DNA from: Caproiciproducens sp. MSJ-32
GTDB lineage: Bacteria; Bacillota; Clostridia; Clostridiales; Clostridiaceae
Assembly: GCF_018918055.1 (NCBI RefSeq)
Contig: NZ_JAHLPS010000028.1
Coordinates: 1 to 39,823 of the forward strand
Direction of reading: 5' to 3'
DNA: 39,823 nt
Part shown: positions 7,598-12,110 of the stretch, in pieces
Position numbering within the stretch: position 1 is the first letter of the stretch
Layout of the letters: every line of letters starts with the position of its first letter
Made by a program: the position numbers and the translations under genes
Notes under the pieces: generated by a model
What the model was told of the DNA's origin: nothing
Database searches by the model: none
The model's input: the letters and a program-made list of their open reading frames with translations, nothing else

Positions 7598-8398
7598 ATG
7601 ATTAAATTAAAATTAATGTCACTTTTATTATCAGGATGTCTAACAACAGGTATTGGGGCAGGAACTTTACCTTCATGCCTTAATAATATAAAAATAACAG
7701 ATCAAATAAAGATTATTGAACAAATTTGCAATACATCAAAAGATAATTCAAATGTAATTATTGAAGAGGAAAATACAGCCGAAAACAACACTGGCAGCAA
7801 TTCTAATGAAAATACAAACAAAGAAGATAATAATTCTAAGGAAGACAATGGGACAAGCAATGAGGCTCCTATAAAAGAAGAAGATAAAAAAGAAGATACT
7901 GCTAAAGAAGAAACACCAGCAGCTCCTGAAGAAACAAATACAGGTAAGGAAAATAATAATTCTGAAGACAACACTCAAAAAGAAGCTTCAGATAAATTTA
8001 TAGCAGAAATCGAACAAGCTATCTTTACAAGAGTTAACAAGGAAAGAGCTGCAGCTGGTCTTACAGCATTACAATACAATGATACAATGGAACACTATGC
8101 AAGATTAAAATCACAAGATATGGGTGATAGAAGATACTTTGATCATAGAAATCCAGAAGGTCAATTAATAACTTCACAAATGCAGGCAGACGGGGTAAGC
8201 TATAGATCTTGGGGTGAAAATATAGCATATATTTCAGGTAGATCTGGAAATGCTGCTCTAGCTGAACAATTTATGAACAACTGGATGAATTCATCAGGCC
8301 ATAGAGCTAACATCTTATCAACTAACTTTACAAGCATTGGAGTTGGAGTTTACAAGGTAGGAACCACTTACTATGCAACCCAAGAATTCTATAGATAA
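7598..8398 (+). CDS. Secreted CAP-domain (SCP/PR-1, YkwD-like) protein
   Basis: 266 residues in three parts: a hydrophobic N-terminus (residues 1-25) that looks like a signal peptide, a low-complexity linker of roughly 80 residues rich in Glu, Asn, Lys and Thr (about 54-135), and a C-terminal CAP domain (about 138-266). The CAP domain shows VNKERAAAGL, LKSQDMGDRRYFDHRNPEG, SWGENIAY, WMNSSGHRANIL and IGVGVY, including the two His and Glu residues of the usual cavity. Bacterial YkwD-type CAP proteins are secreted or spore-associated and their activity is mostly unknown. The acidic linker suggests a wall-spanning spacer. Start ATG with GAGGAGG upstream. It is a single-gene unit ended by a strong terminator. 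Confidence 0.92.
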   Translation: MIKLKLMSLLLSGCLTTGIGAGTLPSCLNNIKITDQIKIIEQICNTSKDNSNVIIEEENTAENNTGSNSNENTNKEDNNSKEDNGTSNEAPIKEEDKKEDTAKEETPAAPEETNTGKENNNSEDNTQKEASDKFIAEIEQAIFTRVNKERAAAGLTALQYNDTMEHYARLKSQDMGDRRYFDHRNPEGQLITSQMQADGVSYRSWGENIAYISGRSGNAALAEQFMNNWMNSSGHRANILSTNFTSIGVGVYKVGTTYYATQEFYR

Positions 8399-8561: not shown

Positions 8562-9263
8562 TTATACAGTTTTATAGTTTTCTAGGACATTGTAAGGAAT
8601 TTTAAATTGAGGCATCCCTGCTGCATAAGGTGCAATTTCATAATAAGCAAACTGGATTACTATATATCCATCTTCTATGTAAAAAGCTTGATTATCCTTT
8701 ATTCCTGTAAAGCCTTCTTTACCAGGAAAAAAAACTTCTTTATTTAAACTTATCTGACTTTCTATTTCTTTATTTATATATTCTTTGTAATCAAATCCTT
8801 CTTTAAATAAATCTTTAAGTTCTAAATTCTTACCTGTGTCCCTATCAATATTATATGTTTTCCTGATTGTTATCCCGTGAGCCCCACCACTATACTGATA
8901 ATAATCAATATAAAAACTCAAAATTTTCTCTTCATTAGTTACCTTATAACTTACAAAACTTTCATATGGAACTCCAGGCCTATTTGCTTCACTAGCACTT
9001 CTATTTTCCTCTACAAAATTATTTGTAAAATCAAGTATCTCCTTATTAATTTCTTCTTCCCTTTCTTTATTATTAAGACCTATAATTTGTGGAATTTTTA
9101 CACTAACTTTTAAATACTCTGAACTCTCTTCAAAGGATTTATCCACAACTAAATTTTCTTCTACTATTTTCCTGTTAATATTAATTAACAAATCTTGTGG
9201 ATAAATAATATTAAAATAATTAATTACTCCTATTATTCCAAATAACATTATCCTTTTTATCAT
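8562..9263 (-). CDS. Exported DUF4163/DUF3298 (RsiV/PdaC-like) protein
   Basis: 233 residues with an N-terminal hydrophobic segment (5-22) that acts as signal or anchor. A DUF4163-like part (about 40-115: SVKIPQIIGL, NKEILDFTNNF) is followed by a DUF3298 domain (about 115-230) with YQYSGGAHGITIRKTYNIDRDTGKNLEL and the C-terminal FAYYEIAPYAAGMPQFKIPY. This pair of domains occurs in the lysozyme-binding anti-sigma factor RsiV and in the accessory part of deacetylase PdaC. Here there is no cytoplasmic anti-sigma part and no sigma gene next to it, so it is a stand-alone envelope protein of unknown job. Start ATG with GGGAG upstream. The 5' part of the gene overlaps a cluster of DnaA boxes. Confidence 0.85.
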   Translation of the reverse strand: MIKRIMLFGIIGVINYFNIIYPQDLLININRKIVEENLVVDKSFEESSEYLKVSVKIPQIIGLNNKEREEEINKEILDFTNNFVEENRSASEANRPGVPYESFVSYKVTNEEKILSFYIDYYQYSGGAHGITIRKTYNIDRDTGKNLELKDLFKEGFDYKEYINKEIESQISLNKEVFFPGKEGFTGIKDNQAFYIEDGYIVIQFAYYEIAPYAAGMPQFKIPYNVLENYKTV

Positions 9264-9566: not shown

Positions 9567-9613
9567 AAAAGGAACATTATCAAATTCAAATAAGAATTCA
9601 ATAATGTCCTTTT
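9567..9613 (-). terminator. terminator after rluF
   Basis: Minus-strand stem AAAAGGACATTAT / ATAATGTTCCTTTT with one bulged base, ending in a T-run, ten bases past the rluF stop. Confidence 0.8.
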
Positions 9614-9622
9614 AATATAATA

Positions 9623-10381
9623 TTATAAATCTGCATCTTCAGTTTTTATTGAATTATTTATTAGAGAATTTAACTTAACTAATTCCTCCTTAGTTAAGTT
9701 TCTCCACTGACCTATTTTTAAATTTCCTAGTTTTATATTCATTATCCTTATTCTTTTTAACTTAATTACATTATAACCTAAGGCTTCACACATTCTTCTA
9801 ATCTGCCTATTCATACCTTGTGTTAATATAATATTAAAGGTATTCTCATTTATTTTTCTAACCTTGCATTTCTTAGTTATCGTTCCTAAAATCCTTACTC
9901 CATTAGACATATCCTTTATAAACTTATCAGTTATAGGCTTATCTACTGTAACTATATATTCCTTTTCGTGATTATTTCCTGCCCTTAATATTTTATTTAC
10001 TATGTCACCATCATTGGTAAGAAGAATTAATCCTTGAGAATCCTTATCTAATCTTCCTATTGGAAAAATTCTTTTTTCATGGCTAACAAAATCAACTATA
10101 TTCCCTTTTACTTTTCTTTCCGTAGTACATGTTATTCCTACTGGTTTATTTAAGGCTATATAAACTAATTCTTCAACTCTTTTTATAGGCTTTCCATCTA
10201 TTTTAACATTGGCATTTTCAGATACCTTAGTTCCCATAACTGCCCTTACTCCATCTACAGTTACCCTTCCTGCCTCTATTAACTTATCTGCCTCTCTTCT
10301 TGAACAAAAGCCTGTCTCACTTATAAATTTATTTAGCCTTATTTTATCTCCCCTGTCTTTATGAACTATAATATTTCCCAT
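9623..10381 (-). CDS. rluF: 23S rRNA pseudouridine synthase RluF
   Basis: 252 residues. Isomerises uridine to pseudouridine in 23S rRNA (position 2604 in E. coli for RluF). An S4-like RNA-binding domain is seen at about 15-62 ([24 protein letters not shown]). The RsuA/RluB/E/F catalytic domain follows, with the [17 protein letters not shown] motif bearing the catalytic Asp. RluF-specific stretches include [45 protein letters not shown] and [15 protein letters not shown]. Start ATG with AAAGGTGAT upstream. It is the last gene of a three-gene operon, 18 bases after the RsgI-like gene. Confidence 0.95.
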
Positions 10382-10399: not shown

Positions 10400-11392
10400 T
10401 TATTCAGAAACCTTATTTTCGTCTCCTGAATTATTAAATTTAACTTCAAGTTTATTTTCTGCTATATATTCTTCTGTATCTTTTATATCTTTATCTTCTA
10501 AAGGCTTTCCAGTTACCTTTAAAACTATACCATTCCCTGGAATCATTTCATTATTAACAGCATATTCTAATATAGTTGTTAAAGCTAAGTCTACATGATT
10601 ATTTTTTATATCCAATTCTTTTAATATTTCCTTAACTTCTTCTGAATTACTAGAATAATTTATAATCTTATTAGATGAGTTTAATTCTAGGGTTATAGTA
10701 GAAGTTGTTTCAATCACTAAGGTTTTATCTGTATTATTATAATTATAATAAGCAATTAAAAATATACAGCCTATTAAACTAAAAAATATTACTATCTGTG
10801 TTTTATATTTCTTGAAAGAAATACTCTCTTTTGCTAAAACTTCTTCACCTATTTTTTCTTCCTTATTTGCTTTAACTTTTATAAATTCTCCCTTTGAACT
10901 TAAAATAATTGAAGAAAATTTTCCCTTGTGAAGAAGAATGCCTCTATGTTCCTCTGTATTCATATTTTCAAATATTTCTTCAGATCCAAGTACTTGTATC
11001 GCTTCAACAATCTGAAGATAGTCTTGCAAATAATGATAAGTTGGATCTGATAAAATGATAAAATATGTTATTATAAATTCCTTCCACTGCTCAAGAAAAT
11101 TTCTTTCTAATGAAGTATTTTCTAACAGTAATTTCATTGGAAATTTTTTATTTTTTACTAGATAATCATAAATTTCTATATTTTCTATTATAAAATAGGT
11201 TATATTTAATATTTTATTTCGAATATCATAAGAAGGTTTATCATAGACTAAGTCTTTAATAAGTATTTTATATTCCAATAAATCTTCTTTTAATCTATTA
11301 ATTTCTTCCTCCCTTTTTTCTATTACATCTTCCAATACTAAATTTATAGGGGGTTTAGTTGAAAATTTATATTTATACTGATGAAAGATCAT
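10400..11392 (-). CDS. RsgI-like anti-sigma protein fused to a SigI-C-like domain
   Basis: 330 residues in four parts. Residues 16-127 resemble the C-terminal region of sigma factor SigI: EKREEEINRLKEDLLEYKI.IKDLV, then DIRNKIL..TYFIIEN.EIYDYLVKNKKFPMKLL, EQWKEFIITYFII and the YLQDYL end. Residues 148-190 are an RsgI N-terminal domain (RGILLHKGKFSSIILSSKGEF.KVK...IGEE). One membrane helix spans 198-216. Residues 222-330 resemble the extracellular RsgI segment. RsgI proteins hold SigI at the membrane through the SigI C-terminal region, so here the partner domain appears fused in cis. The SigI ERNRKY recognition helix reads EQWKEF, and the DINPS cleavage region reads IETTST, so DNA binding and Asn-Pro self-cleavage look lost. 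The gene overlaps the sortase stop by ATGA. The RsgI part is well supported; the SigI part is by-eye inference. Confidence 0.8.
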   Translation of the reverse strand: MIFHQYKYKFSTKPPINLVLEDVIEKREEEINRLKEDLLEYKILIKDLVYDKPSYDIRNKILNITYFIIENIEIYDYLVKNKKFPMKLLLENTSLERNFLEQWKEFIITYFIILSDPTYHYLQDYLQIVEAIQVLGSEEIFENMNTEEHRGILLHKGKFSSIILSSKGEFIKVKANKEEKIGEEVLAKESISFKKYKTQIVIFFSLIGCIFLIAYYNYNNTDKTLVIETTSTITLELNSSNKIINYSSNSEEVKEILKELDIKNNHVDLALTTILEYAVNNEMIPGNGIVLKVTGKPLEDKDIKDTEEYIAENKLEVKFNNSGDENKVSE

Positions 11393-12000
11393 TGTTCTCC
11401 TCCGCCATTTAATTCCTTAGTTTCAATTAACTTTCCTTTAACTATAACTCTTTCTTTAGCACCAACTGTGCATGTAATTAATGTTATTGTTGCATCTTTG
11501 GTGTCATCTAATACTTCAACTCTATCTGGTTGAACAACAAAGTTATCCGTTACTTCATAAATGAATTTTTTACCCTTTGCCTTTACTATTATTTTATCTC
11601 CAACTTTTGTTTTATACAAATTAACAAAAGCCTCTGAATAATCTGAAATTCTATGTCCTGCAACTGCAAAATTTCCCCTTTCTCCAGGCATTGCAGAATT
11701 CTCAAAATGACCTAAATAATATAAAAGTATATCATCTGTTACCCCTTCAACTATTCCTTGAGAAAGATTTATACTAGGTATTTCTAATAATCCTATAGGC
11801 TTATACCCCTCACCTACAGTAAAACTGTCCTCATTATTCTCAGGCTCATCTATGTCTTCATTTATTACTTCTTCTAAAATATTTCTAAGTTCCTCTTGCT
11901 TTTTTTCTGTTTCAATTTTCTTATAAATAATAGATATAATTATAGTAATACCTATAATTATTAAAATAAGCCCTATTAATCTTCTAATTCCCTCTCTCAA
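11389..12000 (-). CDS. Sortase, class D type
   Basis: 203 residues from the preferred TTG start at 12000, which has GGAGGT six bases upstream; an ATG 21 bases further out has no ribosome binding site. One N-terminal membrane helix (8-25), an acidic linker (30-60) and a sortase domain (66-192). The catalytic triad is visible: His116 in AVAGHRISDY, Cys177 in TLITCTVG and Arg184 in KERVIVKGKL. Size, the TLITC motif and the short C-terminus fit class D sortases of clostridia and bacilli, which anchor LPxTG-type proteins. No sortase substrate is encoded next to it. It is the first gene of an operon with the RsgI-like protein and rluF. Confidence 0.9.
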   Translation of the reverse strand: MREGIRRLIGLILIIIGITIIISIIYKKIETEKKQEELRNILEEVINEDIDEPENNEDSFTVGEGYKPIGLLEIPSINLSQGIVEGVTDDILLYYLGHFENSAMPGERGNFAVAGHRISDYSEAFVNLYKTKVGDKIIVKAKGKKFIYEVTDNFVVQPDRVEVLDDTKDATITLITCTVGAKERVIVKGKLIETKELNGGGEQ

Positions 12001-12110
12001 CCCTATACCTCCAATAAACATTTAGGCTATTTTAACATATATTATAACATAAAGGATTTTGTATTTTAATAAGTTTGGATATTTTAGGCATTAATATTTA
12101 GGAGTTCTTT

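Follow-up and report, generated by a model that had tools for sequence, protein, structure and literature searches.

What could a protein do that carries both a sigma factor domain and the anti-sigma domain that binds it? The window analysed here, a stretch of 39,823 nucleotides from Caproiciproducens sp. MSJ-32, encodes such a protein of 330 aa (10400..11392, minus strand, as are all of its parts), composed of an N-terminal strand, a SigI C-terminal domain (SigI-C), an RsgI-N domain, a membrane helix and an RsgI extracellular domain. In known systems, RsgI-N holds SigI-C by a surface that also serves RNA polymerase (PMC10575876, in the part available), and SigI is released by autocleavage of RsgI followed by the action of RseP and then ClpXP (PMC12203970, again in the part available). 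The initial annotation of this locus had described a SigI-C-like domain fused to an RsgI-type protein, such that both halves of this interface would be found in one chain, and the profile matches and predicted fold set out below agree with it on both counts.

Architecture of the fusion and its apparent operon

The open reading frame of the fusion starts with an ATG preceded by GGAGGAG, and just 20 of its residues precede SigI-C. These include the motif FHQYKYKFS (residues 3-11; 11360..11386), with residues 8-10 modelled as a strand; 64 of 65 fusions have a [KR][YF]xF sequence among their first 60 residues, and F10 is invariant in alignments A2, A3 and A4. SigI-C itself spans residues 21-137 or thereabouts (10982..11332), as defined by both profile and fold. 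Residues 24-131 match ten SigI models in their C-terminal half only, the matches starting at model position 109 or beyond, and sigma region 2 is absent; hence the fusion is unable to work as a sigma factor. RsgI-N, likewise defined by profile and fold, comprises residues 146-192 (10817..10957), and its match to PF12791 over residues 149-185 is slightly over the Pfam cut-off (28.5 bits, the cut-off being 25). A single membrane helix (residues 193-219; 10736..10816) leads to an extracellular domain of the RsgI_M, periplasmic type (residues 220-324; 10421..10735), assigned from its fold and from a match over residues 233-320 that is also slightly over the Pfam cut-off. When compared with solved structures, a 32-row profile of the family matches SigI6, SigI1 and RsgI1-N, with 6ivs at 8.8e-5.

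An AlphaFold2 model, which is confident, supports SigI-C, RsgI-N and the extracellular domain. The model of the cytoplasmic segment (residues 1-192) has a pLDDT of 91.7 and a pTM of 0.90, as against 0.63 for the entire chain, and in it SigI-C and RsgI-N are predicted to pack as one body in cis; this pTM speaks for packing, rather than for identity with the arrangement in the 6ivu complex. The tethered pair would also offer structural biologists a naturally occurring single chain in which to study the contact between SigI-C and RsgI-N. Mean-field DCA of 152 sequences (effective number 84) yielded an uninformative coupling signal, since the top 200 pairs contained 43 between SigI-C and the extracellular domain, which are physically impossible contacts, compared to 31 within SigI-C.

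The fusion appears to be part of an operon. Its reading frame overlaps by 4 bp with that of a sortase (11389..12021, minus strand), and 18 bp past its end there begins, on the same strand, a gene which we take to encode an RNA pseudouridine synthase of the rluB/rsuA type (9623..10381, minus strand). The three genes look like one transcriptional unit ending with rluB, because a promoter-like site with an extended -10 (12041..12069, minus strand) lies before the sortase and a lone terminator-like hairpin (9572..9609, minus strand) after rluB. The hairpin is the sole one of its kind between 9200 and 12500, where 0.5 would be expected; the promoter scan is weak, having returned 32 sites in the region against an expectation of 24.5 +/- 4.9.

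Pfam and profile searches identify the sortase (PF04203, 5.4e-33), which is the one Pfam sortase found in the window genome. Its His (in AGHRIS), Cys and Arg (in TCTVGAKER) are all present. The closest solved structure is that of C. perfringens SrtD (4d70, 1.2e-27), an enzyme with the same Cys-Arg spacing of 7, and the NCBIfam scores are 106 bits for class E (cut-off 160), 94.5 for SrtD (cut-off 140) and 72 for class D (cut-off 165). The C. perfringens enzyme is reported to share its operon with a surface protein bearing LPQTGS, unlike the window sortase, which accompanies the fusion; the paper describing it (PMC4498605) nowhere contains the word 'anti-sigma'. The first ATG of the sortase gene (12021) lies upstream of a GGAGGT sequence, the spacing of which suits a TTG at about 12000, hence the true start may be this codon, seven codons in.

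Release, sensing and DNA-reading features

The fusions were compared with proteins of the known systems in an alignment of 65 distinct fusions and 36 SigI-type proteins, the latter consisting of 33 ordinary SigIs, two decayed ones (L141 and L152) and one mini-fusion (L143). These 36 rows, and the 27 canonical RsgI rows used for the other half of the protein, derive from fetched loci, many of them best-scoring, and do not constitute a random sample.

At the position of the former Asn-Pro autocleavage site, the window fusion has Thr230-Ser231 (10700..10705). The Asn-Pro pair is present in none of the 65 fusions and none of eight short RsgI rows, as opposed to 23 of the 27 canonical RsgI rows; 49 fusions have Thr-Ser in its place, and 16 have other pairs. 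Taken alone this loss is undiagnostic, as four canonical rows also lack the site. Long sensor tails are missing too: the sequence past the domain match has a median length of 5 residues in the fusions and 133 in canonical RsgI, and the window protein terminates six residues after the extracellular domain, without a tail. The XAA motif that ClpXP recognises (PMC12203970, part available) was approximated by an Ala-Ala pair within the membrane segment, which is found in five of the 65 fusions as compared with 19 of the 27 canonical rows. Hence cleavage of the Asn-Pro type would seem to have been lost from the fusion, as judged from its sequence.

Deletions across the Asn-Pro region were also observed in two RsgI genes lying beside SigI genes of canonical type (L137:4148-4654 and L138:3064-4014), which indicates that a paired RsgI, too, can lose its cleavage site.

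The available part of PMC10575876, from which the SigI6 residue numbering is taken, places K170, H171, R172 and S174 of SigI6 in the minor groove; the residues in the major groove are R215, which is conserved, and neighbours of it that are less so. Position 172 is deleted in all 65 fusions and in none of the 36 SigI-type rows, whilst position 215 is K or R in all 33 ordinary SigIs but only 13 of the fusions, 23 of which have D or E instead. Most weight was put on these two sites. His171 is missing from every fusion, a loss that is undiagnostic by itself given that 14 of the 33 ordinary SigIs lack it as well. Position 222 is D or E in 53 of the 65 fusions and in no ordinary SigI, 27 of the 33 having K or R there; this was given less weight, since the residue is not one of the DNA contacts named in that paper (in the part available). 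The mean charge of the SigI-C domain is -0.6 in the fusions and +4.7 in ordinary SigIs, the corresponding values for the helix-turn-helix stretch being +3.7 and +6.9; the window protein itself has charges of -9 and +2 respectively. These differences suggest that SigI-C has lost DNA binding in the fusion. However, as the helix-turn-helix stretch is still net positive, and K or R is retained by 37, 38 and 40 of the 65 fusions at positions 214, 219 and 221 respectively, some DNA binding may remain. The initial annotation had considered both DNA reading and Asn-Pro release to be unlikely, and the wider comparison strengthens each of these opinions.

With the RsgI anti-sigma factors of B. subtilis (8t9n) and C. 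thermocellum (RsgI1, RsgI2, RsgI6 and RsgI9), the fusion shares the order of RsgI-N, helix and extracellular domain; it differs in having SigI-C in front, no Asn-Pro site, no sensor tail and, often, a host genome in which no SigI was found. Its SigI-C shares the fold of the C-terminal domain in SigI1 (6ivu) and SigI6 (8i24), yet it lacks sigma region 2 and position 172, has mostly lost the K or R at 215 and is anchored in the membrane. Another parallel is C. thermocellum RsgI9, which is also of RsgI type and is described as having no paired SigI, but for which no SigI-C domain is described in the available part of PMC12203970. The open-licence literature matches listed contained no account of SigI-C fused to RsgI. 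Each domain is known, and it is their combination, with the loss of most release and output features, that was not found in the literature searched. It would be wrong to classify such proteins as functioning RsgI or SigI, and the name 'anti-sigma factor' on those in Clostridium may mislead about their function.

Distribution, origin and gene neighbourhood

The fusion family is old and occurs in Clostridium and its relatives. Searching with the family alignment gave some match in 165 of 187 genomes of the family, and in 92 of these 187 a full-length fusion spanning both halves, counted as a listed match from position 26 or before to position 320 or beyond. Of the 58 genomes of the genus 57 contain such a fusion; the sole exception (G046) is an assembly of 1.5 Mb in which the match was weak. 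In an order-level search, for which 146 genomes were drawn, no full-length fusion was found in the 14 genomes of the order outside the family; one of the 14 (G200) has a partial match (26-272) with one stop.

A search for canonical SigI covered these 187 family genomes, many of which are draft assemblies. Within the genus, 30 genomes have a full-length SigI match free of stops and one (G022) has a match with three stops, whilst in 27, including G046, no full-length SigI was found. The fusion is consequently retained without a detectable full-length SigI in 26 of the 57 genus genomes that bear it. In the window genome, where no full-length SigI was found, seven sequences match the SigI models, the fusion best of all and, alone among them, only over the C-terminal half; the six others match TIGR02895, one of them (L003) resembling an ordinary sigma factor.

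The fusions have a single origin. They form one side of a branch with support of 98/96 in a tree of SigI-C (few columns, 103 rows), and a single clade, with an SH-aLRT of 97, in a tree of the RsgI half.

Several loci contain related arrangements. In L110, sigI, rsgI (with INPS), the fusion and rluB are consecutive on one strand. Five loci of genus g21 (L134, L135, L136, L137 and L138) combine sigI and rsgI with a further, short rsgI of 192-195 aa, with PP or SP at the Asn-Pro position. Two loci of genus g25 (L141:3339-4555 and L152:4915-6164) encode, close to ispF and a sortase, a SigI with weak model scores and a short RsgI that lacks Asn-Pro; the SigI scores are 84 and 102 bits, as against 179 for the SigI of L110, and residues of region 2 and those reading the -35 are altered, the switch apparently decaying here without a fusion. 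In the SigI-C tree these two are placed with canonical SigI, though placing them with the fusions is not rejected by an AU test (p 0.159); the tree of the RsgI half has them next to the fusions, with a support of only 20. It is plausible that the g21 triplets, the g25 pairs and L110 represent steps towards the fusion, the g25 pairs being either ancestral or parallel to it. Together, the L110 triplet and the decaying L141 and L152 pairs hint at a path leading from a duplicated switch to an adaptor. A further locus (L143:3796-4398) encodes a 200-aa protein of SigI-C, RsgI-N and a membrane segment, which lacks the extracellular domain and does not have the deletion at position 172; this is possibly a second, independent fusion, the test of which gave p 0.304.

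Gene order was compared across 61 loci, namely 60 selected from the 92 fusions and L146, some of the stretches ending at contig ends. A sortase is found directly upstream of the fusion on the same strand in 24 of these, and anywhere in the stretch in 28; rluB is directly downstream in 34, and ispF is no more than 1.5 kb away in 51. In 16 loci a gene for a polysaccharide deacetylase, identified by Pfam on L022, lies at most 300 bp away; this gene (L022:9033-10040 and similar cases) is convergent to the fusion in loci that lack the sortase. The loci of C. beijerinckii type among those compared have no sortase as neighbour. Envelope genes recur near the fusion, and no single one of them is a constant partner. 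Forty-one of the 58 genus genomes have a Pfam sortase match; the 17 without one all have the fusion, which, along with the adjacency in only 24 of 61 loci, rules out the sortase as an obligate partner.

Selective constraint and possible functions

Codon comparisons of the window fusion with four relatives (L062, L009, L013 and L064) gave whole-gene omega values of 0.13, 0.15, 0.17 and 0.40, those for the sortase being 0.17-0.25 and for rluB 0.07-0.15. In all four pairs, dN and omega are both lower for SigI-C than for any other folded part, with SigI-C omegas of 0.065, 0.089, 0.053 and 0.133 in the order above, the last two being rough owing to saturation of dS (4.8 and 3.4 for L013 and L064); the N-terminal stretch, of 20 codons, has an omega below that of SigI-C in the L009 and L064 pairs. 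Hence the domain apparently robbed of promoter reading seems to be the best-kept folded part of the protein, and such constraint argues for a function in binding. Since the features needed for switching on have apparently been lost from a protein that is nevertheless well conserved, it has probably acquired a new job. At this locus a sigma factor and its anti-sigma factor seem to have become a single natural polypeptide, in which the known signalling is disabled and selection continues; this suggests that SigI-C and RsgI-N may be retained for purposes other than transcription.

Our tentative preference is for a signalling pair turned constitutive, as an adaptor spanning the envelope, because a closed, uncleaved module fits best and the constraint argues for binding. 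A SigI-RsgI pair would have undergone a single fusion in an ancestor of some members of the Clostridium family, and would then have been stripped of signalling features, sigma region 2 included. SigI-C would have kept its fold, bound in cis by RsgI-N on the cytoplasmic side of the membrane helix, with a deletion and the loss of a conserved basic contact in what would have been its DNA-reading surface; the extracellular RsgI domain would similarly have retained its fold, with the Asn-Pro bond that starts release and the long sensor tail both gone. The outcome would be a closed membrane-spanning module, not cleavable in the known way, which could dock partners through its SigI-C face on the inside and its RsgI domain on the outside. 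The co-transcribed sortase may be one such partner in lineages such as that of the window.

It is possible, though on balance improbable, that the fusion is instead a switch that works without proteolysis, an extracellular signal reversibly opening the SigI-C/RsgI-N latch so that SigI-C can bind a cytoplasmic partner. An example of such a partner would be the flap-tip helix of RNA polymerase, which in known systems is bound by the same SigI-C surface as RsgI (PMC10575876, part available). That SigI-C is the slowest-changing folded domain, as a binding surface would be, and that the extracellular domain has been retained are both consistent with a switch; however, the sensor tail is gone, and the tether would keep RNA polymerase at the membrane. 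We know of no precedent for RNA polymerase tethered in this manner. In an unlikely form of the same idea, the sigma domain would serve as the permanent cytoplasmic head of a receptor, shown to a partner or to RNA polymerase when the latch opens without proteolysis; if true, a sigma factor domain would here be used, family-wide, for something other than transcribing.

A dedicated adaptor or regulator of the co-transcribed sortase seems doubtful. The overlapping reading frames in the window, and the sortases upstream or elsewhere in the stretch in other loci, would fit such a role, but the 17 genus genomes without a Pfam sortase match speak against it, as do those loci in which the fusion adjoins rluB or a polysaccharide deacetylase instead. 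The rewiring to the sortase that the initial annotation had entertained is not supported as a general function; the sortase link is local, and a partnership may exist in lineages with the operon, that of the window included. Its other suggestion, a decoy titrating the RsgI or SigI of a canonical pair, is very improbable: both halves of the interface are present, and 30 genus genomes do have a full-length SigI as well, but each half is predicted to be already taken up by the other in cis, and decoying fails as a general function because of the 26 genus genomes, that of the window included, which have the fusion and in which no full-length SigI was found.

We regard as similarly remote a self-cleavage by other chemistry at Thr230-Ser231, through an acyl shift to the Ser, by which release would be altered rather than lost; the predominance of Thr-Ser at this position would accord with it, but not the different pairs in 16 fusions, the rarity of Ala-Ala in the membrane segment, or the lack of an output domain to release. 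That the fusion is a decaying, functionless relic of a sigI-rsgI duplication is barely credible, for although most of the recognised signalling features are lost, full-length retention in 57 of 58 genus genomes and the low omegas of both the whole gene and SigI-C contradict it.

Other sequences of note were observed in the window genome. The sole Gram_pos_anchor match above the cut-off (L155, on G000:C13) has an LPSTGG motif, a helix and KNKSKK. Near the operon, at 7598-8398 and 8562-9263 of the window, are encoded two proteins with signal-like N termini, the second of which often stays near the fusion in relatives.
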